From: Rhodospirillaceae bacterium
GTDB lineage: Bacteria; Pseudomonadota; Gammaproteobacteria; Steroidobacterales; Rariloculaceae
Assembly: GCA_024638465.1 (NCBI GenBank)
Contig: JAHEKF010000004.1
Location: 1-43,167, forward strand
DNA: 43,167 bases
Direction of reading: 5' to 3'
How positions within the stretch are numbered: the stretch's first letter is position 1; the number at the start of each line of letters is the position of its first letter. The position numbers and the translations under genes are program-made. The notes under the pieces were generated by a model that made no database searches, was not told where the DNA came from, and saw only the letters and a list, made by a program, of their open reading frames with translations. Below are positions 19,139-30,992 of the stretch, in pieces.

Positions 19139-19540
19139 TCACTGGCCGGATTGCTGCTGATAGATGCGCGCCGCGGCCAGATCATAGGTCGGGTAGAACT
19201 CGGTCTGATAGGCGCCCCAGGCACCCCGCTCGATAGCCACGTTCACCATGCGCAGGCGGTTCGGCGGCACCCGCAAAACGATGACTTGCCCGATTCCCAT
19301 GAAGACGTAGTGATCGACGATTTCGACACCCTCGGGCGGGAAAATCTCGTTCAGCCGGTTCTGTGTGGCGATTTCATTGATCTGCGCGATATTCATCGTC
19401 TGATCGTGCTTGAGGTAAACCGTCAGCAGGAAGGCTTCTTCGTCCTCCAGCAACGGGCCGGTCATCGGTCCGTCCTGAGCCAGGCTCAGCGAACCGAGCA
19501 CCATGATGAGTGCGGCGGCGACAAGTTTGGTTTTTTTCAT
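19139..19540 (-). CDS. Conserved exported protein of unknown function
   Basis: 133 residues with a signal peptide (about 1-21, ending S-L-A-Q). The mature part has V-Y-L-K-H-D-Q-T-M-N, F-P-P-E-G-V-E-I-V-D, a V-F-M-G-I-G-Q-V-I-V-L-R-V-P-P strand and a C-terminal E-R-G-A-W-G-A-Y-x-T-E-F-Y-P-T-Y-D. I recognise the pattern as a recurrent uncharacterised family but no function is known to me. The overall look (strand, helix, G-I-G-Q strand) is that of a small alpha-beta barrel like GYD/YciI folds; this is inference. ATG 19540 has GAGGAG nine bases upstream. Divergent from the ECF sigma factor. Confidence 0.85.
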   Translation of the reverse strand: MKKTKLVAAALIMVLGSLSLAQDGPMTGPLLEDEEAFLLTVYLKHDQTMNIAQINEIATQNRLNEIFPPEGVEIVDHYVFMGIGQVIVLRVPPNRLRMVNVAIERGAWGAYQTEFYPTYDLAAARIYQQQSGQ

Positions 19541-19678: not shown

Positions 19679-19752
19679 GGCCGACAGAAATCGCGCATCT
19701 CGCGAAGGATTTCTCAGCGAGCCACGTCTCTGTATCGAGGGAGCCGCTGTCT

Positions 19753-20382
19753 ATGAATATTGTTCACACTGATCGTGCGATCGCCAAAAAGCTTCTCAGC
19801 GGAGATGAGGCGGTATTTCGTGAAATATTCGACAGCTATTTCCCGCGCCTCTACCGTTTTGCACTCGTACGAGTTGACGGCAATGCCGCCGAGGCACAGG
19901 AGATGGTGCAACAGACTTTCTGCAAAGCCTTTGAGCGCCTCGAGACCTATCGCGGCGAGGCGTCGCTGTATGGATGGATGTGCCAGATCTGCCGTAACAC
20001 GATCACGGACATGGGACGGCGCAAGCAGCGCGAGCTCAAGAGGATGCCGCTGCTCGAAGACGATAAGACGATCCAGGGAATACTCGAGTCGCTAGCAGCA
20101 CCGGTATCGGACGAGCCCGACCACTACGCCTGGCGAGCAGACCTGACACGGCTGATTCAAGCGACGCTCGACAACCTGCCAGCCCATTACGGCGACGTAC
20201 TGGAGTGGAAATACGTCGACGGCCTGACCGTCAAGGAAATCGCGGAACAACTCGGCGTCGGCGCGAAAGCAGCCGAATCGATGCTGACTCGGGCCCGCGC
20301 TGCATTCAGAGAAGCTATCGCCACTATCACGGGCTCTGCGGATATTCTGCCGCGCCCAACAGAAAGTCCCGTCAAAGGGTAA
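19753..20382 (+). CDS. ECF-type RNA polymerase sigma factor
   Basis: 209 residues. Region 2 (about 25-95) has F-D-S-Y-F-P-R-L-Y-R-F-A, A-E-A-Q-E-M-V-Q-Q-T-F-C-K-A-F and the W-M-C-Q-I-C-R-N segment. Region 4 (about 135-190) has L-P-A-H-Y-G-D-V-L-E-W-K-Y-V-D-G-L-T-V-K-E-I-A-E-Q-L-G and the A-A-E-S-M-L-T-R-A-R recognition helix. No regions 1 or 3, as expected for the ECF group. A GAGGGAG lies about nine bases before ATG 19753. Only four bases separate its stop from the FecR-like gene, so it is presumably held and released by that regulator. Its target promoters are not evident. Confidence 0.93.
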   Translation: MNIVHTDRAIAKKLLSGDEAVFREIFDSYFPRLYRFALVRVDGNAAEAQEMVQQTFCKAFERLETYRGEASLYGWMCQICRNTITDMGRRKQRELKRMPLLEDDKTIQGILESLAAPVSDEPDHYAWRADLTRLIQATLDNLPAHYGDVLEWKYVDGLTVKEIAEQLGVGAKAAESMLTRARAAFREAIATITGSADILPRPTESPVKG

Positions 20383-20386
20383 CGCA

Positions 20387-21421
20387 ATGCATCAAGACAA
20401 CACAGACGACAGCCGCGAAGCAGCCGATGATCGCGGTCGCGACGTTCTCGGCGAACTGATCCAGGTCGCAGGACGCCGCCCGTCCCCATCGTCCGATCAC
20501 TACGAACAGACACTCGCGGCGGCGCATGCCGTCTGGCAGCAAAAAGTGCGCGCAACCCGACAGCGTCAGCGTGTCGTAGCGGTTGCAGCTTCCATCGCGA
20601 TCGTGGCGATGGGGATCGGCGCCGTGTTGCGCCTGCTGCCGGATACCCCGCTGCCGCCAATTGCGTCTGCGGCCGTCATACAGGGTGACGTAGCCGTGTT
20701 TTCGCCGGAGAGCGGAACCTGGGCACCGGTTACCGAAACGGGATCAGAACTCGGCGCCGGCGACCGCCTGCGGACTGACAGCGAAGGCCGCGCCGCGTTC
20801 AGGCTCGGTGATCAGATCTCCGTGCGCATCGATTCTGCCAGCGAATTGATGTTCACTTCGGAATCGGAACTCGAGCTGATTGCCGGTGCCGTTTACGTCG
20901 ACTCCGGAGCGGGCAACCGGGCCGGTTCGCTGGAGATCGCGACATCTCACGGTATTGTTCAGGATATCGGTACGCAGTTCGAAGTCGCAACGATGGACGA
21001 CGGCTTGCGAGTCCGGGTCCGCGAAGGTCTGGTGCAACTCTATCAGGCGGAGCAGGAACTCGCGTTCGAGGGCCGCGCGGGTCAGGAGTTTCGCGTCGAT
21101 CCGGTCGGAACGATCCGCCAGAACAGCTTCTCGCCTTACGATCCGGCGTGGAGCTGGGCAGAGGCTTTGGCGGGGTCGCCGAACGTCGAGGGCATGCCGG
21201 TACTCGAATTCCTCAACTGGGTTGCCCGCGAAACCGGACGAGAGATTCAATTCGAAGGCAGAAACGTCCAGCTTGCAGCCGGCAGCGCGATTCTGCACGG
21301 AAACGCGCAGAATCTGACGCCGATGGAGGCGCTCGAGGTCATGCTGTCAACGACGAACTTCGTCTACAGCCTCGACACGAGCGGAGCGATCATCATCAGC
21401 CGGCGAAGCATCACCCGCTAG
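20387..21421 (+). CDS. FecR-like transmembrane anti-sigma regulator
   Basis: 344 residues. A cytoplasmic N-terminus of about 60 residues leads to one transmembrane helix (about 63-84). A periplasmic FecR domain follows (about 110-215: V-F-S-P-E-S-G-T-W, G-D-R-L-R-T-D-S-E-G-R-A-A-F-R-L-G, then T-S-H-G-I-V-Q-D-I-G-T-Q-F-E-V). The last 80 residues (G-M-P-V-L-E-F-L-N-W-V-A-R-E-T-G-R, L-T-P-M-E-A-L-E-V-M-L) look like an STN/secretin-type module. In the Fec paradigm such a protein binds the sigma factor in the cytoplasm and the receptor's signalling domain in the periplasm. AAGGG precedes ATG 20387. A 29-base gap leads to the receptor gene. Confidence 0.9.
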   Translation: MHQDNTDDSREAADDRGRDVLGELIQVAGRRPSPSSDHYEQTLAAAHAVWQQKVRATRQRQRVVAVAASIAIVAMGIGAVLRLLPDTPLPPIASAAVIQGDVAVFSPESGTWAPVTETGSELGAGDRLRTDSEGRAAFRLGDQISVRIDSASELMFTSESELELIAGAVYVDSGAGNRAGSLEIATSHGIVQDIGTQFEVATMDDGLRVRVREGLVQLYQAEQELAFEGRAGQEFRVDPVGTIRQNSFSPYDPAWSWAEALAGSPNVEGMPVLEFLNWVARETGREIQFEGRNVQLAAGSAILHGNAQNLTPMEALEVMLSTTNFVYSLDTSGAIIISRRSITR

Positions 21422-21450
21422 GTAGAAAATAGAGGACGGAGGCGTACTGC

Positions 21451-24042
21451 TTGAGCGAAGTCGCACCGCATCATTCGCAATACCGCGACGACCGCGGCCA
21501 CCCCATCGGCGTCGTCGGCCTGGTTGTGCTCGTGATTCTTGCATTGCTCTCGGCACCCATCCGCTCGCTCGCTCAAGTGACCGAACTCGAAGGTCTGTCA
21601 ATCCTGGACGCCCTCACGGTTCTCGAAGCCGAGGGATTGCAGTTGATCTACAGCTCCGATCTGGTGCAGCCCTGGATGAGCATTCGCGAACCACGTGAAG
21701 CTCAGGATCCGGCGCAGGCGCTACGCGATTTGCTGACACCGTTCGGGCTAACGACGCAACCCGGGCCAAGCGGGTCGTTGCTGATTGTCCGTGCCGAGAT
21801 CGCTGCCGAAACTCCACTTCAAACCGGCAGTTTGTTCGGCATCGTCAATGAACGCAGCCGGCAGCGCCCGGTCGCAGGTGCAACGGTCACGGTGACGGAA
21901 GCCGGCCGCAGTACCACAACGGACTCGGAAGGCCGGTTCCTGTTTACCGATCTGGATCTCGGCGATTACCGCGTGCTCGTAACTCATCCGGTCTTCGAAC
22001 AGACGACCGCGGATGCGATCGAAGTCGCGGCTCGACAGACGACGATGACGACCTTCGAGATGGGCGTCGCGCAACCTGGTGCGCTCGAAGAGATCGTTGT
22101 CGCAGCCAGTCAGTACCAATTGACCCGATCCGTCAGTGCATCGCATTCACTGCTTACCAGCGAAGACATCGAGTTCCTGCCGGATTTCGGAGACGACGCG
22201 CTAAGAGCCGTTAGCCGCCTTCCCGGAACCACAAGCAACGGCGTGAGCGCACGATCCAATGTCCGCGGTGGTGAAGTTGGCGAGACACTCGTTCGTTTCG
22301 ACAGCCTGAGACTGTACGAGCCGTTTCATTTGAAGGAATTCCAGAGCATCTTCAGTACGGTCGATCCGCGCGTCATCAACTCGATGAACATCTATACCGG
22401 CGGCTTTCCCGCCGCATTCGGCGATCGAATGAGTAGTGTTATCGACGTGGCATCGTTAAACGCGCCAGAAGAACCCTACACAGAAGTCGCTCTGAGTTTT
22501 TTCAACTCTTCGGTACTGAATGCCGGCTCGTTCAATGATGGTGCCGGCGAATGGGTTGCCTCAGTACGAAGAAGCAATCTCGATATTCTCTACGAAAATT
22601 TCAGCGACCAGGCGGGTCAGCCACGCTACCTGGATGCCTTCGCAAAATTCTCCTATGCCGTTGACGATTCGCTGCGCATCACAGGCAACTATCTGTTTTT
22701 CGCAGATGACACGACGCTCGAAGATCTCGATCTTTCTCGCGCGGCTACTGCGGAGGGCGAAGATCGATACCTCTGGCTTCGACTGGACCATACGCCCGGA
22801 CCTGCGTTTTCCGGTGCCACCCTTATCGCTCAATCGAAATTCTCGAACGACAGGAGCGGCTTCACGAACGAGCCTGGCGTCAGCACGGGTTCGCTCGATT
22901 ACCACAGTTCCTTCGCGATCGACTCGATACAGAGTGACTGGACCTGGGCGCCAGACGACACCCTGTTTTTTCAGTTCGGTGGCAGCCTGAGCCACGTCGA
23001 AGGACGGTATTCCTATCGCGACGAAGTCAGCTTCGATCTGCTGTTCAACGTCCCCGGAGCGGCGACGGAGACACAACGAACGAGAGACATCCAAGTTTCA
23101 CCCGAGGGCAACCAGTATTCCTTGTACGCCAGCGCACGCTACAGCCCGACGCCCGATTTCGCTGCGGATTTCGGGCTGCGCTGGGACAAACAAACGCTCG
23201 ATCCCGCGGAGACGGATACGCTCGGACCGCGGCTGGGGTTTCGCTATCGGCTTGCCGATCGAACCTACCTGCGCGGTAGCTGGGGACGTTTCTACCAGTC
23301 CCAGGGCATCAACGAGTTGCAGGTCAATGATGGCGTACAGCAGTTCTTTCGACCGCAGCGTTCGGATCACACGGTCATCGGAATCGAGCACGATTTCCCT
23401 CGCGGCCTCAACTTGCGCATCGAAGCCTACGATAAATACATGCGATCTTTGCGCCCGCGGTACGAGAATCTTCTGAATACACTGATACTGCTACCCGAGC
23501 TGAAGCCCGATCGAGTTCGCATCGATCCTTCGACGGCGCGAGCGCGCGGAGTGGAAATCACGCTCAGTCAACAGCTGAATCAGCCACTGACGTGGTGGTT
23601 CGGCTACAGCAACGCCTGGGTCGAAGATGAGATCGATGGCGTCGAGGTGTTGAGGAGCTGGGACCAGACCCACGCGGTGAGCGCCGGTATGGTATGGGAC
23701 ACGCCGAAATGGAATCTGAGTCTGGCATTCGTTCACCGTACGGGTTGGCCGACCACGCCGGTCTCGCTGGCCCCTTCCAGCGGCGGTGTGCCGCTGGTGG
23801 CGACGTCGGGCAGAAACACCGCGCGACTCGGCGACTACAGATCCCTGGATTTTCGGGTGACGCGTAAACTGGACGTTAAGGGCACATCACTGAATCTGTT
23901 CTTTGAACTCACGAATGCGACAGGCAGAAACAACACCTGCTGCGTCGAATACGAAATCGAGGAAGAGAGCAGCCTGTTCGAAACGAAACACCTCGACTAC
24001 CTGCCCCTGATTCCCTCGGCAGGCTTCGTCTGGAGGTTCTAA
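21451..24042 (+). CDS. TonB-dependent receptor with N-terminal STN signalling domain
   Basis: 863 residues starting at TTG 21451, supported by a GGAGG eight bases upstream. Order: hydrophobic export signal (about 20-41), STN domain (about 45-115: I-L-D-A-L-T-V-L-E-A-E-G-L-Q-L-I-Y-S-S-D-L), carboxypeptidase-regulatory-like domain (about 128-205), plug (about 215-330: R-A-V-S-R-L-P-G-T, N-V-R-G-G-E-V-G-E-T) and a beta-barrel ending in aromatic F (W-R-F). It imports a substrate across the outer membrane with TonB energy and can pass a signal inward through STN to FecR. The substrate is unknown; no iron, heme or sugar gene is adjacent. It is followed by two novel lipoprotein genes in the same direction. 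Confidence 0.92.
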   Translation: MSEVAPHHSQYRDDRGHPIGVVGLVVLVILALLSAPIRSLAQVTELEGLSILDALTVLEAEGLQLIYSSDLVQPWMSIREPREAQDPAQALRDLLTPFGLTTQPGPSGSLLIVRAEIAAETPLQTGSLFGIVNERSRQRPVAGATVTVTEAGRSTTTDSEGRFLFTDLDLGDYRVLVTHPVFEQTTADAIEVAARQTTMTTFEMGVAQPGALEEIVVAASQYQLTRSVSASHSLLTSEDIEFLPDFGDDALRAVSRLPGTTSNGVSARSNVRGGEVGETLVRFDSLRLYEPFHLKEFQSIFSTVDPRVINSMNIYTGGFPAAFGDRMSSVIDVASLNAPEEPYTEVALSFFNSSVLNAGSFNDGAGEWVASVRRSNLDILYENFSDQAGQPRYLDAFAKFSYAVDDSLRITGNYLFFADDTTLEDLDLSRAATAEGEDRYLWLRLDHTPGPAFSGATLIAQSKFSNDRSGFTNEPGVSTGSLDYHSSFAIDSIQSDWTWAPDDTLFFQFGGSLSHVEGRYSYRDEVSFDLLFNVPGAATETQRTRDIQVSPEGNQYSLYASARYSPTPDFAADFGLRWDKQTLDPAETDTLGPRLGFRYRLADRTYLRGSWGRFYQSQGINELQVNDGVQQFFRPQRSDHTVIGIEHDFPRGLNLRIEAYDKYMRSLRPRYENLLNTLILLPELKPDRVRIDPSTARARGVEITLSQQLNQPLTWWFGYSNAWVEDEIDGVEVLRSWDQTHAVSAGMVWDTPKWNLSLAFVHRTGWPTTPVSLAPSSGGVPLVATSGRNTARLGDYRSLDFRVTRKLDVKGTSLNLFFELTNATGRNNTCCVEYEIEEESSLFETKHLDYLPLIPSAGFVWRF

Positions 24043-24102
24043 AAGAAGGATTTCTATCTGATCCGTCGTCACCAGGACACAGGATCATCAGGGAGTCCAA
24101 CA

Positions 24103-25080
24103 ATGAACCCAAAGCCACTCCGGCGGAATCTACAGTTGTGTTCCGCGCTCGTTCTGGTCGCTTGCTCCGGCAGCGCAGCTGCACAGGATTTCGGCTGCAC
24201 AGCCAGCGCGCGCCTGATGCGTTTCGCCTGTTCGAGCGATCTCAGAGACAGTTTTTATACACAAACGGCGCAGTGTCAGGACAGTGCGAATTTCGATGAA
24301 GCCTGCGTAGAGGATGCGCGAGCCGAACTCGACGAAGGCGAAGAAGAATGCAGCGACGTCTTCGAAGCGCGGCTCGATCTCTGCGACGCGCTGGACGACG
24401 CCACCCACGAACCGCCGTTCGGTCCTGCATTCGCATCGAACTTCGTGGACCCGACGGAAATCGGCTCCACCGTCACACCGAATCCGTGGTTTCCGCTGGT
24501 TCCTGGCAATCGCTGGACCTACGATGCCGGCGACGAACTGATCGTGGTCGAAGTGCGGAACCAGACGAAACTGATTCAGGGAATCAACTGCCTTGTAGTG
24601 ACGGACATCGTTTCCGAAGACGGCCAGCTGGTCGAAGACACGGACGACTGGTTCGCGCAGGACGTCGACGGCAACGTCTGGTACTGCGGCGAGATCGCCG
24701 AGAACTATGAACTGTTCGAGGGCGACGATCCCGAAACCGCTGAATTCGTCGACATCGAAGGATCGTGGAAGTCCGGAAGAGACCGCGCCAAAGCCGGGAT
24801 GCTGCTTCCTTTCGAACCGCTGCCCGGGACGATTATTCGACAGGAGGTTCGCTATGGCGACGCCGAGGATGTCATCGAAATCGAGAGCGTTACCGCAACG
24901 GAGAGCGCTCCCGGCGGCGCTTGCAGCGAGACGTGCCTTCGAACCCGCGATTTCACGCCGCTGGATCCGGAGGTCGAGGAAAACAAATTTTACGCGCCGG
25001 GTATCGGTTTGATCGTCGAAATCGATTCCGAGACCGGCGAACGCGTCGAACTCGTGGAGTTCGCAGGAGTCGGATCATGA
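24103..25080 (+). CDS. Ten-cysteine lipoprotein of unknown function, short form
   Basis: 325 residues. The signal ends in a good lipobox, L-V-A-C (Cys21), followed by S-G-S; a signal peptidase I site (A-A-A-Q) is also possible. The mature part has cysteines at 32, 43, 58, 68, 83, 94, 163, 195, 274 and 278. The first six lie in an acidic helical region rich in D-E-G-E-E-E-C. Then comes P-N-P-W-F-P-L-V-P-G-N-R-W-T-Y, a beta-rich domain (D-D-W-F-A-Q-D-V-D-G-N-V-W-Y-C-G-E) and Y-A-P-G-I-G-L-I-V-E near the end. No enzyme motif is recognised. All ten cysteines and most of the sequence recur in the next gene, whose ATG overlaps this TGA (ATGA, 25077-25080). GGGAG precedes ATG 24103. Confidence 0.88.
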   Translation: MNPKPLRRNLQLCSALVLVACSGSAAAQDFGCTASARLMRFACSSDLRDSFYTQTAQCQDSANFDEACVEDARAELDEGEEECSDVFEARLDLCDALDDATHEPPFGPAFASNFVDPTEIGSTVTPNPWFPLVPGNRWTYDAGDELIVVEVRNQTKLIQGINCLVVTDIVSEDGQLVEDTDDWFAQDVDGNVWYCGEIAENYELFEGDDPETAEFVDIEGSWKSGRDRAKAGMLLPFEPLPGTIIRQEVRYGDAEDVIEIESVTATESAPGGACSETCLRTRDFTPLDPEVEENKFYAPGIGLIVEIDSETGERVELVEFAGVGS

Positions 25081-26891
25081 ACAATCCAATGTCCCCCCGA
25101 CGCAAGAGCCCGCTGCTGTTTGCTTCAATCGCTCTCGGCATAGCGGTCGCGGTAGCGATCGCCGGATGCGGAGGCAGCAACAACACGCCACGACCGAGTG
25201 GCCCGAACACCGGCCAGCCGGCGCAGCCCGTCAATATCGAGGGCATCGTGTCGGACGGTCCGGTCGCGGGCGGCACGCTGTTCGTCTTCAGCCGCGACCG
25301 GATCCTGGCCGCTCTGGCAGCGGCGACCGAAAGCACTGATCGGCGCGCAGCGTTGATAGCCGCAGGACCGATAGCGACACTTACGAGAGACTCAGGCGAC
25401 GAAGGCCGCTACTCGATGAGCGTCCCCGGCGAGCATGCCGCTACGTTCGTGTTCGTGGTATTCGACAGCAACGGCGCAGAAGACATGGCGTTCCACGACA
25501 CGCCACCTAATCTCGAGGCGGTCGTCGTCCTGGGTTTTGCCGGTACCACACAACGTGTGAACGTCAGTTTGCATACAACGCTGATTGCCCAGCAGGTGCG
25601 TGCACAGCTCGATCCGGATGGTGACGGCACACCTATCCTGCAAAGCGCCCTTCAGGCCGTCGCGCAGACTGCGCAGACGTCGGTACTCGGCGCCCTTGGA
25701 GAAGACGATCAGGGCCGGCCGCTCTATCCGGGCGGCGCAAGCCCGGTATCGGCAGATGACGACAGCATGATCGACCGGGCGTCCGGCGTCATCGGACTGC
25801 TCATCAGGATGCTCGCGTCTGTTAATGGCATCACGCTGGATCAAGCCGTGGCTGCGCTCGCGGCAGATGCCGGTGATGGAGCCATCGACGGGGTCATCCC
25901 GGCGAATCTCGGGGCGATGGGCGATCTCGCTGCGCATGCAGCCGCCGCGCACGATTTTCGCGCTCGCGGGCGCAGAGACAACCTCGACGTCAATGCCGTC
26001 GGTCCCTGTTCCTCAGCGGCCGTGTCGATGGCGCGCGCCTGTGCAGTCGACCTGATCGACAACGCCTTCGAGCAGCGCGCTTTCTGCGCGGATACAGCCG
26101 ACGATGGAGAACGCGGCGATTGTCTTGCAGAGGTCGACGGCGAGCTCGAAGAAAGCGAAGAAGAGTGCGATGCGATTTTCGAAGCCAGACTGGATCTCTG
26201 CAGCTCGCTTGGAGATGCCGCGCACGATCCAGCGTTCGGTCCGATGTTCATGTCGAACTTCGTCAATCCCCGCAACATCGGAGGAATCGTTCCACCGAAC
26301 CCCTGGTTCCCACTCGTCGTGGGAAATCGCTGGACTTACGAAGGCGACGGAGAAACGATCGTCGTCGAGGTCCGGGACGAGGTGAAACTGATTGACGGCA
26401 TTCCCTGTATCGTCGTCAACGACATCGTGACCGAAGACGGCGTACTGATCGAGGATACGGACGACTGGTACGCACAGGATCTCGACGGCAACGTCTGGTA
26501 TTGCGGCGAGATCGCGTTGAACTACGAATCCTTCGATGGCGACGATCCCGAGGAGCCCGAACTCGTCGATATCGACGGTTCATGGAAGGCCGGGCGCGAC
26601 GGTGCTGAACCCGGCGTGCTGCTGCCATTCGCGCCGGTCCCCGGCGATGTGATTCGGCAGGAAGTTCTCTACGGAGAGGCCGAGGACGCGGTCGAGATCG
26701 ACAGCATCACCGCAACGGAAACCGCCCCGGGCGGCGGCTGTGCCGGTGACTGCCTCAAGACGACGGACTTTACCCCGCTCGAGCCCGATACGCTCGAAAG
26801 CAAGTACTACGCGCCCGGCCTGGGATTGATCGTCGAAGTCGATGAAGAAACCGGCGACCGCGTCGAACTCATGCTTTTCGAATCCGGCTAA
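25077..26891 (+). CDS. Ten-cysteine lipoprotein, long form with extra N-terminal domain
   Basis: 604 residues. The lipobox is I-A-G-C (Cys31), followed by a Pro/Asn/Gly linker. Residues 53-170 begin V-N-I-E-G-I-V-S-D-G-P-V-A-G-G and look like an Ig/CNA-type strand domain. A helical Ala-rich part follows to about 300. From residue 311 to the end the protein is a full paralogue of the preceding gene: its cysteines at 311, 322, 337, 349, 364, 375, 444, 476, 555 and 559 match all ten there, and the N-P-W-F-P-L-V-x-G-N-R-W-T-Y block is kept. Being downstream of the TonB receptor, the pair could be surface substrate-binding partners; that is inference. The start overlaps the previous stop by four bases. 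Confidence 0.88.
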   Translation: MNNPMSPRRKSPLLFASIALGIAVAVAIAGCGGSNNTPRPSGPNTGQPAQPVNIEGIVSDGPVAGGTLFVFSRDRILAALAAATESTDRRAALIAAGPIATLTRDSGDEGRYSMSVPGEHAATFVFVVFDSNGAEDMAFHDTPPNLEAVVVLGFAGTTQRVNVSLHTTLIAQQVRAQLDPDGDGTPILQSALQAVAQTAQTSVLGALGEDDQGRPLYPGGASPVSADDDSMIDRASGVIGLLIRMLASVNGITLDQAVAALAADAGDGAIDGVIPANLGAMGDLAAHAAAAHDFRARGRRDNLDVNAVGPCSSAAVSMARACAVDLIDNAFEQRAFCADTADDGERGDCLAEVDGELEESEEECDAIFEARLDLCSSLGDAAHDPAFGPMFMSNFVNPRNIGGIVPPNPWFPLVVGNRWTYEGDGETIVVEVRDEVKLIDGIPCIVVNDIVTEDGVLIEDTDDWYAQDLDGNVWYCGEIALNYESFDGDDPEEPELVDIDGSWKAGRDGAEPGVLLPFAPVPGDVIRQEVLYGEAEDAVEIDSITATETAPGGGCAGDCLKTTDFTPLEPDTLESKYYAPGLGLIVEVDEETGDRVELMLFESG

Positions 26892-26906: not shown

Positions 26907-26935
26907 CCGCCGGCGAAGGATCTTACCGCCGGCGG
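26907..26935 (+). terminator. Hairpin after the lipoprotein operon
   Basis: CCGCCGGC (26907-26914) pairs with GCCGGCGG (26928-26935) over a 13-base loop, 15 bases after the stop of the long lipoprotein. No T-tract follows, so termination is uncertain. Confidence 0.45.
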
Positions 26936-26951
26936 ACGTCTCCTGGTCAGT

Positions 26952-27680
26952 ATGAAAGTATTCGTCATCAGTTTGCTCCGATCCGAAGCGCGACGCACCC
27001 ATGTCGATCGACAGCTCAGCGCACAGAGCGTCGATTACCGGTTCTTCGACGCACTTGACGGCAAAGCCGGCTACAAGATCAGCTTCGATAGCTTCGATTC
27101 GACACAATTTATCCTCAGGACCGGAAGGCTCGCCACGCCCGGAGAGATCGGCTGCTTCGCGAGTCACCGGCAACTCTGGCGTCACTGCATGGATCTCGAT
27201 GAACCTGTCCTGATAATGGAGGACGATTTCGATCTGACAGCCGGGTTCTCCTCCGCCGTCACGGAAGCGCGTGCGCTGATCGGGCGCTACGGCTATCTTC
27301 GACTGCAGACCGAGTCGCGCGGCAAGCGCGTCAAACATTCTCAAGCCGGCGATTTTGGCGTGCATTTCTATACGAAGGTGCCTCACGGAGCGGCTGCTTA
27401 CTGCATCAGCCCGAACGTCGCCCGCGCACTCCACCTTTCGAGCGCGATATTGAACGCGCCCGTGGATGTGTTTATCAAAAGCGTCTGGGAGCACCGTCAA
27501 CCGCTGTTCGGCTTATTGCCCTACACGGTACAACCGAATTGGATGGCTCGGCACTCGACGATCGGAGCAAGAGACAAACTGCGGAAGGATCTGCCTCTTC
27601 GCTCCGCCCGCGTCGTCGAGAAGGCCCGCGATCTGACGAGACGGGCACTTTTTAATCGCGGAGCGTTTCTGCGACTATAG
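26952..27680 (+). CDS. Glycosyltransferase family 25 (LPS biosynthesis type)
   Basis: 242 residues. GT25 landmarks are the N-terminal V-F-V-I-S-L-x-R-S-E-A-R-R, the G-E-I-G-C-F-A-S-H-R-x-L-W block (64-76) and the I-M-E-D-D metal/nucleotide motif (88-92). Family members add galactose or related sugars to lipopolysaccharide core or O-chain. No signal peptide, so cytoplasmic, as expected. It is followed within 50 bases by a DUF4159 gene on the same strand, and LPS-related genes lie at 28857-30992 on the other strand. Confidence 0.9.
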   Translation: MKVFVISLLRSEARRTHVDRQLSAQSVDYRFFDALDGKAGYKISFDSFDSTQFILRTGRLATPGEIGCFASHRQLWRHCMDLDEPVLIMEDDFDLTAGFSSAVTEARALIGRYGYLRLQTESRGKRVKHSQAGDFGVHFYTKVPHGAAAYCISPNVARALHLSSAILNAPVDVFIKSVWEHRQPLFGLLPYTVQPNWMARHSTIGARDKLRKDLPLRSARVVEKARDLTRRALFNRGAFLRL

Positions 27681-27714
27681 GCGGGCATTGGCGATCGCGG
27701 CGCAGGCGATTCCT

Positions 27715-27720
27715 TATAAT
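27715..27720 (+). promoter_or_regulatory. TATAAT immediately before the DUF4159 start
   Basis: A consensus -10 hexamer ends six bases before ATG 27727, so transcription would start at or near the initiation codon and give a leaderless mRNA. The only -35-like string (TTGGCG, 27688-27693) is 21 bases away, too far for a standard promoter. Confidence 0.3.
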
Positions 27721-27726
27721 GGACGG

Positions 27727-28542
27727 ATGCGCCTGCCCACCGACCTTTCCGAGAAGTCTTCCGCGCGAGTTGTCTGGCTGCTCACCGTCGCGCTCGCGGT
27801 GCTGGTCGCGCCGGCGACGATTGTCGCGCAAGGCTCAAATCCGGTAGCCGGCCCCGAAGCCGAGTTCCATATGGCGCGGCTGATTTACGATCAGATCGGC
27901 GGTCGCGGTCGAGGCTTTGGTGGCCGTGGTCTCGGCTGGTATGCGATTGATTATCCCGCGGCGGAATACCATCTGACACGCGGTCTCCGCCGCTTGACGA
28001 GACTCGACGTCGCGGAAGACAGCATCCATATACGCAGCCTCGACGACAGAATCTTCGATTATCCGTGGCTGTTCGTGCAGCAGGTCGGCAACTGGCGGCT
28101 GACGGCTGCGGAAGGCGCGATGCTAAGGGAGTACGTACTACGCGGCGGCTTTATGGTCGTGGACGACTTCCATGGTGTGTACGACTGGGCGGTTTTCGTA
28201 GATTCGATACGACTCGTCTTCCCCGACCAGCCGATCATCGACATCCCCGACGACGATACTCTGTTGCATGTGCTTTACGACCTCGACCAGCGTACGCAGA
28301 TACCCGGCCGACGCCATCTTTATTGCGACCCGCGCGGCGAGACAACGGTGCAGCTTCCGGGAGGACCGCCGCGCTGGCGCGGCATCTACGATGACAACGG
28401 CCGGCTGTTGGTGGCGATCAACTACAACATGGATATGGGCGATGCCTGGGAGCATGCCGACGATCCCTGCTACCCGGAGCCGATGACGGCACTGGCGTAC
28501 CGGTTCGGTATCAACTATGTCATCTATGCAATGACACATTGA
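27727..28542 (+). CDS. DUF4159 domain protein, exported
   Basis: 271 residues from ATG 27727; a TTG at 27688 is an alternative. A signal peptide (about residues 12-35, ending I-V-A-Q) is followed by F-H-M-A-R-L-I-Y, a Gly/Arg-rich loop and a DUF4159 core: D-Y-P-A-A-E-Y-H-L-T-R-G-L-R-R-L-T, then D-Y-P-W-L-F-V-Q-Q-V-G-N-W, E-G-A-M-L-R-E-Y-V-L-R-G-G-F-M-V-V-D-D-F-H-G and N-Y-N-M-D-M-G-D-A-W-E. The fold resembles class I glutamine amidotransferase-like ThuA proteins without clear catalysis; activity is unknown. It usually travels with MoxR/DUF58 genes, but none is here. A 22-base gap leads to a small membrane protein. Confidence 0.82.
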   Translation: MRLPTDLSEKSSARVVWLLTVALAVLVAPATIVAQGSNPVAGPEAEFHMARLIYDQIGGRGRGFGGRGLGWYAIDYPAAEYHLTRGLRRLTRLDVAEDSIHIRSLDDRIFDYPWLFVQQVGNWRLTAAEGAMLREYVLRGGFMVVDDFHGVYDWAVFVDSIRLVFPDQPIIDIPDDDTLLHVLYDLDQRTQIPGRRHLYCDPRGETTVQLPGGPPRWRGIYDDNGRLLVAINYNMDMGDAWEHADDPCYPEPMTALAYRFGINYVIYAMTH

Positions 28543-28856: not shown

Positions 28857-29786
28857 CTAGACCCGTGCTTCGCTCGCGGCAGCGAGGATATTGAACGGCG
28901 CATGTTCCGGTAAGCGGCAATTTTCGAGCGGAACCAGAACGGTGGTTGTCAACGCGTATTGACCGGATACGACCGAGTGACTGATTCCGTCCGTGAAAAC
29001 CATCCACGACGAGAGCGGCGGGAAGCGAATCTCGCGATAGCCGCTCTGGTCCCCGCGAAATTCGAGCGACTCCTTCATGTAATTGTGAATCCGCCGCATC
29101 GCGCGATCATAAGGACTCGAGTCGACAACTTTCGCCAGAGGGTAAACTTTGCTCAGACCGCCAACGAATCCGCTGAAGCAATGATCCAGAACGCCTTTCT
29201 TAACGGTAATTCGCTCTCCATTCCCACGTGCAGCGTCCGGAAACGCCGCGTGCGCCTCGAATAAACTGCGGAAGCTGCCTTTCGTTCCCCAGACACGGTC
29301 CCTGTCCGGATGCAGATTCACGAAGAAACGCAGGATGCGATTGCCGTTCGTCGCACCGTAGGCACCCGCGTCAATGTGAACGATCTCGCTGCTCGCGCGT
29401 GGATGAAGACCGCGACCTCCCTCCTCGATGCCGCGGAAACTGCTGGTTCCGAGAGTCCACCCTGGCGCAAGATTCGGCAACTGTCGCGTCAGGAATTCAC
29501 CGACCCTGGAACGATGGTCGCGCAGAATGTCCGTTACTCGGGACGTTATTTCGGGTGACGCATCGAAACCCGGAACCGAGTCGGATTCGGGGTGATAGCT
29601 GATATTTTTCAGCTTCGCCTGGTCGGGAAGCTCGCTCCGCAGGAAATCACAGTCAGCTTCGGTCGGAAGCTCTATCGGGCAGCGTTCGAAAAATACGACG
29701 TCGCTCGATTCCAGCGCAGTCTCTATCTGCGCCGACGTCGCGTCGTCGAATTTATTTAGCGCATAGGCTTGCGGCATCTTCGTCAT
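28857..29786 (-). CDS. kdoO: Kdo hydroxylase (Fe(II)/2-oxoglutarate dioxygenase)
   Basis: 309 residues. The dioxygenase iron ligands can be placed as His137-x-Asp139 (I-V-H-I-D-A-G) and the distal His270 (G-I-S-H-S-V-V-S-G). The stretch R-G-L-H-P-R-A-S-S-E before the H-x-D and the N-G-N-R-I-L-R-F-F-V-N-L block are as I know them from KdoO, which hydroxylates C3 of Kdo in lipopolysaccharide to give Ko, using O2 and 2-oxoglutarate. It sits next to a heptosyltransferase gene on the same strand (48 bases apart), which fits an inner-core LPS role. M1 or M4 could be the true start. Confidence 0.88.
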   Translation of the reverse strand: MTKMPQAYALNKFDDATSAQIETALESSDVVFFERCPIELPTEADCDFLRSELPDQAKLKNISYHPESDSVPGFDASPEITSRVTDILRDHRSRVGEFLTRQLPNLAPGWTLGTSSFRGIEEGGRGLHPRASSEIVHIDAGAYGATNGNRILRFFVNLHPDRDRVWGTKGSFRSLFEAHAAFPDAARGNGERITVKKGVLDHCFSGFVGGLSKVYPLAKVVDSSPYDRAMRRIHNYMKESLEFRGDQSGYREIRFPPLSSWMVFTDGISHSVVSGQYALTTTVLVPLENCRLPEHAPFNILAAASEARV

Positions 29787-29834
29787 CTCTCGTTCGCCGA
29801 TTCGTCCCGCCGAACAAAAACCCTATCAGAAACA

Positions 29835-30992
29835 CTATGATACCAAGCCCCGGGTCGCGCCAGGGCTTCGGTTTACCGCAACGCCGGCACGCTCGAATGC
29901 CGCGCGGAGCTTGGGGTACACGTCGTCGACGGTAATCATGTTCATTGCGTCCGGGTTGCGTACCCTGCGTCCCCAGCGAATCTCGTCCACGGTCTTTCCG
30001 AGCTCCCTGCGCACGGCATCAGGATAGCGGTCGACGACGAGATCCTGGCTGAAGTAAGGGCCGGTGCGATGCCGGTTAGAGGTCGCATACAGACCGACTA
30101 CAGGCGTCCCGACCGCCGTTGCCATATGCGCCGGCCCCGAATCCGGGCACAAGACGACTGACGCTCGCTCGAGCACGGCAACGAGCTGTTTCAGGGATGT
30201 CTGACCGATGAGATTCAGTACTTCGCACTCCGTGCGTTCGGCGATACCGCGGCCATAGTCTCTCTCCAGTTCCGTGGGTCCACCCGTCAGGACGATCGTA
30301 GCGCCGAATACCTTCGCCGCATGGTCCGCGATCTCGGCATAACGGTCGACGCTCCAGTTGCGGAAGTTGCGGAAACGCTGGCCCGTACAAGGGCTGATCA
30401 CGAGCACCGCATCGCGATCTCCGATGGTCCTTGCAGCGTACTCACGGTCCGCAGGCCGCAGTGGAAGATCCCAGCGAACTTCGCCACGTTCCACACCAAC
30501 CGCCGCAGCGAATTCGAACAGCCCATCCATGACATGTTGCTGCGGTGTCGAAGGCAGATGATTTCGGCAGAACAGCCATTGATAGTCCCGCCCCCTCGCT
30601 CGATCGAACCCCAGTGTGGTTTTCGCCGAAACGAAAAGGCTGACAAGATTCGCACGCATCGACGCGTGCATATGCAGCAACAGATCAAAGCGCCGGCCCG
30701 CGAGTTCCCGGCGCACATCGAGATACGCGTTACGCTTTCTCGATTTATCGAACACGACAAACTCGACACCGTCGAGTCCTTCGAGCAGTCCATACTCCAT
30801 CTTGCCGATGATCCACGTCAGTTTCGTATCGGGCCATGCGTCCTGGAGCGCGCGCACTACGGGGACCGTGTGACAGGTGTCGCCGATGGCCGAGAGTCTG
30901 ACAATACAGACCTCTCCGGGTGGGTCGTCGAAGGAAGGCAGCACGATTCGGTGGCTCAGGAAGTCTGAAAGTGAGCCCGGATGATAGCCCAC
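29835..30992 (-). CDS. Glycosyltransferase family 9 (heptosyltransferase-like)
   Basis: 385 residues from GTG 30992; a slightly later start is possible since the family begins near I-V-R-L-S-A-I-G-D (29-37). GT-B fold: the N-terminal part has L-T-W-I-I-G and L-L-L-H-M-H-A-S-M-R, the C-terminal part has V-L-T-G-G-P-T-E-L-E, the P-D-S-G-P-A-H-M-A-T-A-V-G-T-P-V-V-G-L-Y donor motif and H-R-T-G-P-Y. It transfers ADP-heptose to the LPS inner core (WaaC/WaaF/WaaQ class); which linkage cannot be told. It lies upstream of kdoO on the same strand, probably one operon, and is divergent from the penicillin-acylase gene. Confidence 0.9.
   Translation of the reverse strand: MGYHPGSLSDFLSHRIVLPSFDDPPGEVCIVRLSAIGDTCHTVPVVRALQDAWPDTKLTWIIGKMEYGLLEGLDGVEFVVFDKSRKRNAYLDVRRELAGRRFDLLLHMHASMRANLVSLFVSAKTTLGFDRARGRDYQWLFCRNHLPSTPQQHVMDGLFEFAAAVGVERGEVRWDLPLRPADREYAARTIGDRDAVLVISPCTGQRFRNFRNWSVDRYAEIADHAAKVFGATIVLTGGPTELERDYGRGIAERTECEVLNLIGQTSLKQLVAVLERASVVLCPDSGPAHMATAVGTPVVGLYATSNRHRTGPYFSQDLVVDRYPDAVRRELGKTVDEIRWGRRVRNPDAMNMITVDDVYPKLRAAFERAGVAVNRSPGATRGLVS

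Follow-up and report, generated by a model that had tools for sequence, protein, structure and literature searches.

A Fec/Pup-type signalling relay and a common predicted promoter element before secreted-protein and glycosyltransferase genes in a gammaproteobacterium of the Rariloculaceae

Most of what is known about cell-surface signalling comes from iron uptake. The question of what such a relay may control in another setting was raised by a locus in contig JAHEKF010000004.1 of a Rhodospirillaceae bacterium (family Rariloculaceae in GTDB), of which positions 1 to 43,167, hereafter called the window, were analysed. In this locus, the genes of an extracytoplasmic function (ECF) sigma factor, a FecR-type anti-sigma factor and a TonB-dependent receptor were followed by two genes of unclear role, named lipA and lipB. 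A preliminary description of the same DNA had presented the five genes as a complete surface-signalling chain ending in two novel lipoproteins, and had suggested that the latter served in substrate binding or sensing. Based on the analysis reported here, the locus is probably an autoregulated cell-surface signalling switch with lipA and lipB among its outputs and a change of the envelope as its result. The regulatory part of this proposal, for which the relay components, a common promoter element, the covariation of the element by lineage and the positions of its targets can be read directly in the sequence, is very likely correct.

Relay components and the promoter element

The ECF sigma, FecR and TonB receptor components were all matched, so the Fec/Pup model covered the first three genes as had been proposed. 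The sigma factor was recognized by Pfam (Sigma70_r2/r4 and ECF) and scored above the cut-off of the NCBIfam sigma70-ECF model. The FecR protein contained a Pfam FecR domain (E 2e-14) and a single transmembrane stretch at about residues 63-84, with a cytoplasmic part N-terminal to it, the FecR domain beyond it and an STN-like C-terminus. The latter matched Pfam STN weakly (E 0.02), and the FecR family profile matched the periplasmic domain of PupR (6ovk_R, E 2e-9). In the receptor, Pfam identified the barrel (E 2e-19) and a CarboxypepD_reg domain (residues 128-204), and a Plug match fell below threshold. The claim of a complete signalling chain had included an STN domain in the receptor, for which none of 10 family members gave a Pfam match; here it was the fold comparison that gave support. 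The top Foldseek matches of the predicted receptor fold (AlphaFold2, AF2; predicted local distance difference test, pLDDT, of 63) were full-length FpvA and FoxA, signalling domain included, and the alignments covered ~900 columns with signalling-domain structures versus ~720 with structures lacking that domain. A predicted STN-like signalling domain at approximately residues 45-118 was thereby supported. Hence, from the Pfam components, the fold match of the receptor model to FpvA and FoxA and the profile match to PupR, it was concluded that the relay is of the Fec/Pup kind.

The same architecture, with iron receptors as the best structural matches, would be expected if the relay were an ordinary one for the uptake of iron or siderophores, with neighbouring genes present by accident. 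However, no Fur-box-like site was found before the sigma gene, and no iron-transport genes were detected in a Pfam survey of the locus; these two features would mark the iron-uptake subclass. The repeated linkage of lip genes to the relay in different gene orders and the common promoter element, both presented below, also contradicted the iron explanation, which was considered highly improbable.

A bipartite element, first read upstream of the sigma genes as GAAGGATTT-N12-CGTCT and generalized to GAAGGATTT-N12/13-CGTC[AT], was found before 35 of the 38 sigma genes of the family. The 3.26-Mb genome that includes the window contained three exact sites, at 19704, at 24045 and 9 bp before the ATG of a second gene of the GT25 glycosyltransferase type (contig C94). 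In 34 genomes, 29 exact sites were recorded, compared with 0 for the reversed control.

Further, relatives of lipA (lip genes) were gathered from two sources, genome contigs and a set of 396 genomes belonging to the same order. A locus was treated as linked when the sigma/FecR/receptor trio, complete or in part, lay within a few kilobases of lip. Scored at a match of at least 12 of 15 positions, the element preceded 14 of 24 linked lip genes versus 16 of 745 other genes, a control set that still included some likely true targets (Fisher 9e-16). For unlinked lip genes the count was 11 of 51 against the same control (Fisher 2e-7). None of 12 lipB genes had the element, as expected of a lipA-lipB operon.

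The element occurred in two variants by lineage, GAAGG and GACCG. The variant before lip agreed with that of the sigma promoter of its own genome in 22 of 24 classable pairs (Fisher 7e-5), and in 10 of 11 pairs when sigma and lip were unlinked (Fisher 0.024). Both disagreements came from one genome (G233), the second sigma gene of which has the matching variant. Common ancestry weakens these probabilities, although it would not easily account for the agreement in trans.

The coordinates of the five genes and their junctions of 4, 29, 60 and -4 bases, all on the plus strand, were reproduced exactly (Table 1). The locus had been taken to end at 26891, which did not hold, as a third element at 26915 precedes a GT25 gene. 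Since the bipartite element precedes sigma, lipA and, with one mismatch, GT25, the locus probably comprises three transcription units and not one.

Table 1. Genes and predicted promoters of the locus (window positions)
Feature	Coordinates	Strand	Basis
Predicted promoter of the sigma operon, GAAGGATTT-N12-CGTCT	19704..19729	+	exact; 23 bp between its end and the sigma ATG
ECF sigma factor gene	19753..20382	+	Pfam Sigma70_r2, r4_2; NCBIfam sigma70-ECF above cut-off
FecR-type membrane anti-sigma factor gene	20387..21421	+	Pfam FecR, transmembrane stretch, PupR profile match
TonB-dependent receptor gene	21451..24042	+	Pfam, AF2, Foldseek
Predicted promoter of lipA-lipB, GAAGGATTT-N13-CGTCA	24045..24071	+	exact; between the receptor stop and lipA
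lipA, secreted protein gene	24103..25080	+	family alignment A1 of 37 rows
lipB, lipoprotein gene	25077..26891	+	invariant lipobox Cys; AF2 model
Predicted promoter of GT25, GAAGGATCT-N13-CGTCT	26915..26941	+	one mismatch
GT25 glycosyltransferase (lipopolysaccharide-biosynthesis type) gene	26952..27680	+	Pfam PF01755 E 1e-28
DUF4159 protein gene	27688..28542	+	Pfam 1e-38; 7 bp 3' of GT25

The lip proteins and their linkage to the relay

The lipA and lipB proteins were paralogues, 63% identical over the C-terminal ~290 residues. In lipA, a six-Cys helical domain was followed by a beta domain, named lipCore, while lipB was composed of a beta-sandwich (52-160), a helical region, the six-Cys helical domain and lipCore (418-602). 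Neither protein had a match in Pfam, NCBIfam or the PDB sequences, in agreement with the novelty claimed earlier, and the signal region of lipB gave an NCBIfam match below threshold only. The lipobox Cys was invariant in 7 of 7 lipB relatives. The relatives of lipA carried signal-peptidase-I-type leaders with no conserved lipobox Cys, and the window copy alone reads LVAC. Therefore, the term "twin lipoprotein" was half right, as it applied to lipB but not to lipA. The AF2 model of lipB had a pLDDT of 90.8; the best solved structural match of the lip fold was 4fvs, an uncharacterised Parabacteroides lipoprotein, and a weaker likeness to DUF1849/EipB was recorded (E 0.02).

The lip gene was linked to sigma/FecR/receptor in 22 of 72 loci, in some of which (L055, L075 and L083) contig ends left only part of the trio visible. 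In the order, 18 of the 59 lip-bearing genomes showed linkage versus ~0.6% per genome expected by chance, a figure that assumes two receptors per genome. Gene order in the linked loci varied, with lip placed 3' of the receptor, 5' of sigma or divergent from sigma, and linkage was scattered over the lip tree, with at least nine changes forced. It was concluded from these comparisons that the association of lip with the relay is not due to chance. According to the preliminary description, lipoprotein homologues lying mostly away from TonB receptors, or separate transcripts, would have spoken against a system. Both were found in part: most lip homologues outside this lineage were away from TonB receptors, and lipA had its own predicted promoter. 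The promoter evidence still pointed to one regulon, and the idea of a system was upheld, because lip relatives were linked to the trio far above chance and shared the promoter element of sigma even when distant from it.

A different role would follow if lipA and lipB were surface or periplasmic partners that capture substrate for the receptor, in a SusD-like or TbpB-like manner, within an uptake system that produces them when needed. The lip genes adjoin the receptor and are predicted to be co-regulated with it, lipB is a lipoprotein, and the beta domain has an open-barrel-like predicted fold that could hold a ligand. However, the lipA relatives are not lipoproteins, and lip is distant from any family receptor in many genomes. 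Of the 396 genomes from the order, 180 had the family receptor and only 59 had lip, which makes lip an optional member. The partner role is also at odds with the glycosyltransferase genes having the same promoter element and with the putative regulon containing no inner-membrane transporter or hydrolase. This explanation was judged unlikely, and a strict receptor partner was rejected as the main interpretation, given that linkage appears and disappears. The sensing or substrate-binding role suggested for the lipoproteins found no support, as the gene was often divergent or unlinked and was used with two-component and EptA/DgkA regulators in related families. To judge by their separate predicted promoters, by their being often missing or remote from the receptor and by their use with other regulators, the lip proteins most likely represent outputs of the switch and not its sensor.

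Those other contexts were compared in turn. EptA and DgkA adjoined lip in L030, L080 and L081, and a response regulator and histidine kinase did so in L026, L038, L045, L047 and L077; SDF transporter, response regulator/histidine kinase and EAL neighbours were lineage-specific. It was also observed that L030, L080 and L081 each hold a single lipA relative beside the EptA phosphoethanolamine transferase/DgkA genes, and that in L030 a site resembling the element (13/15) lies before EptA. Such neighbours would be in line with an envelope-stress output, in which lip would serve envelope maintenance in the periplasm generally, similar to EipB/DUF1849, and would be attached to different sensors in different lineages and here to the receptor relay. 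The weak fold similarity to DUF1849 and the lipopolysaccharide (LPS)-type glycosyltransferases in the putative regulon also favoured this proposal, against which stood the 4fvs protein as the best solved match and the weakness of the EipB match. It was kept as a tentative alternative of distinctly less than even likelihood, and it is compatible with the switch, not exclusive of it.

Putative regulon and possible envelope function

The putative regulon of the window genome was compiled by pattern searches. Elements at promoter positions were found for sigma-fecR-receptor, for lipA-lipB, for two GT25 genes, for a GT4 gene (contig C89) and for a secreted-protein gene (contig C128); the sites of the window GT25, the C89 GT4 and the C128 secreted protein had one mismatch each. 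Sites with two mismatches were mostly intragenic and were left uncounted (79 versus 46 in the reversed control). Both GT25 genes (window 26952 and L130:1536) start ~9-10 bp past the element, and their transcripts would thus be very short-leadered or leaderless if the predicted starts are right.

Similar targets were recorded in related genomes. A GT25 relative lay beside the sigma gene in L024. A GT2 gene was situated between the receptor and lip in G010, where GT2 and lip each had an element, and in G013, where GT2 was element-bearing; further targets in G010 included a GT25-like start on contig C94. In G066 the element occurred with two tandem lip genes and a secreted protein, and element-bearing relatives of the C128 secreted protein were found in G066 and G082. 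No clear target gene was seen for several exact sites elsewhere (G008 C35, G020, G036, G086 and G210).

The family of the C128 secreted protein, which has no Pfam match and is termed sec153-like, had the same element in three genera (L166:4960-5769, L153:1710-2561 and L154:543-1388, minus strand). The family was near or fused to lip in L023, L029, L032 and L056; in L023 (8810-12118) the lipB open reading frame extends and is apparently fused to a sec153-like domain. A protein with an STN-like region and HEAT repeats was encoded at L166:5772-6734, directly 3' of the C128 secreted-protein gene. A second relay of this family was observed in L150/L159 (G014, contig C245), where sigma and a gene for a TlpA-like redoxin diverge from each other and exact elements face both ways.

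By analogy with Fec/Pup, a ligand bound to the receptor would send a signal from the STN-like domain of the receptor to the STN-like C-terminus of FecR. The FecR protein would then be processed or rearranged, and the freed sigma factor would transcribe its own operon and the targets. The output would be an altered outer envelope, with lipA secreted, lipB held as a membrane lipoprotein and glycosyltransferases changing the surface glycan or the LPS core. Because the element precedes secreted-protein and surface glycosyltransferase genes, the relay probably reshapes the envelope and does not import iron. As a specific function read from the targets, envelope remodelling was regarded as plausible but somewhat short of an even chance. 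A more extended proposal, that the relay senses an outer-membrane cue (a glycan, a bacteriocin, a phage or a neighbour's product), rewrites the LPS core or surface glycan and releases a new secreted family, and that this use of cell-surface signalling for surface remodelling is conserved in an environmental gammaproteobacterial order, is speculative and rather doubtful.

Several points weigh against the switch and its envelope role. The glycosyltransferase targets varied by genome (GT25, GT4, GT2), and the glycan theme was based on few cases. One-mismatch sites were also found within genes, so the non-exact sites at 26915 and on C89 and C128 could be due to chance. No good element was seen for about four-fifths of the unlinked lip genes, and 14 lip genes that form a clade occurred in other contexts, including two-component or EptA/DgkA genes. 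Because the sequences were related, the Fisher tests treat them as more independent than they are, and some of the loci scored had also supplied sigma promoters from which the consensus was derived. In addition, the receptor model is only moderately confident.

The genes around the locus were also considered. The DUF4159 gene is possibly on the same transcript as GT25, and its membership is uncertain; DUF4159 was rejected as a conserved partner because no relatives were present in the other collected loci. Convergent to GT25-DUF4159, a Kdo hydroxylase and a family-9 heptosyltransferase were encoded at 28857-30992 (minus strand), which fits an LPS-core setting and suggests an LPS-core neighbourhood. 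A small secreted protein of 133 aa, with no Pfam match, was encoded divergently from the sigma gene at 19139-19540 (minus strand), and no relatives of it were found in the collected loci.

The promoter element offers a direct, testable list of relay targets in uncultured gammaproteobacteria, and gives a regulatory context to two secreted families with no Pfam match, lipCore and sec153-like. A locus of unclear substrate is thus turned into a specific prediction of three transcripts at named coordinates and of glycosyltransferase targets elsewhere in the genome.

Comparison with known systems

In Fec/Pup systems a ligand acts through the signalling domain of the receptor and FecR to release the sigma factor (PMC9249621, PMC7186176). 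The locus resembles the Fec/Pup/Fpv (FecIRA-like) systems in its ECF sigma factor, its FecR with one transmembrane stretch and an STN-like C-terminus, and its receptor with a predicted FpvA/FoxA-like signalling domain. It differs from them in having neither iron genes nor a Fur-box-like site, and in its putative targets, secreted proteins and glycosyltransferases. Autoregulation is absent from fecIR of E. coli, where a single promoter is under FecI control (PMC9249621), whereas the sigma operon described here carries the putative element of its own sigma factor. FecIRA-like systems that act beyond iron have already been reported (PMC12772443), and in its tested components, as read from sequence, the present system works like the FecIRA-like systems and belongs to them.

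The PUMA3 system of Pseudomonas aeruginosa (VreA-VreI-VreR) is a non-iron cell-surface signalling system that controls secreted or exported products (PMC2729926). The non-iron use and the control of secreted products, here both putative, are common to both systems. However, VreA lacks a beta-barrel and PUMA3 targets Hxc type II secretion and tps, in contrast to the complete receptor and the other target set found here. The sigma-FecR-SusCD loci of Bacteroidota are similar in the sigma/anti-sigma pair, a receptor with CarboxypepD_reg and a neighbouring lipoprotein; unlike in those loci, lipA and lipB had no SusD match in Pfam, and the receptor scored 18.8 bits against a cut-off of 368 on the NCBIfam SusC/RagA model. 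EipB is an envelope-integrity factor (PMC10787603) with a periplasmic spiral beta-barrel of the DUF1849 type, to which the secreted, beta-rich lip proteins bear the weak fold resemblance noted above. The lip proteins differ from it in having no sequence relation by Pfam, an additional six-Cys helical domain and 4fvs as their best solved match. In a search limited to an open-access library, no cell-surface signalling system controlling LPS glycosyltransferases was found described.

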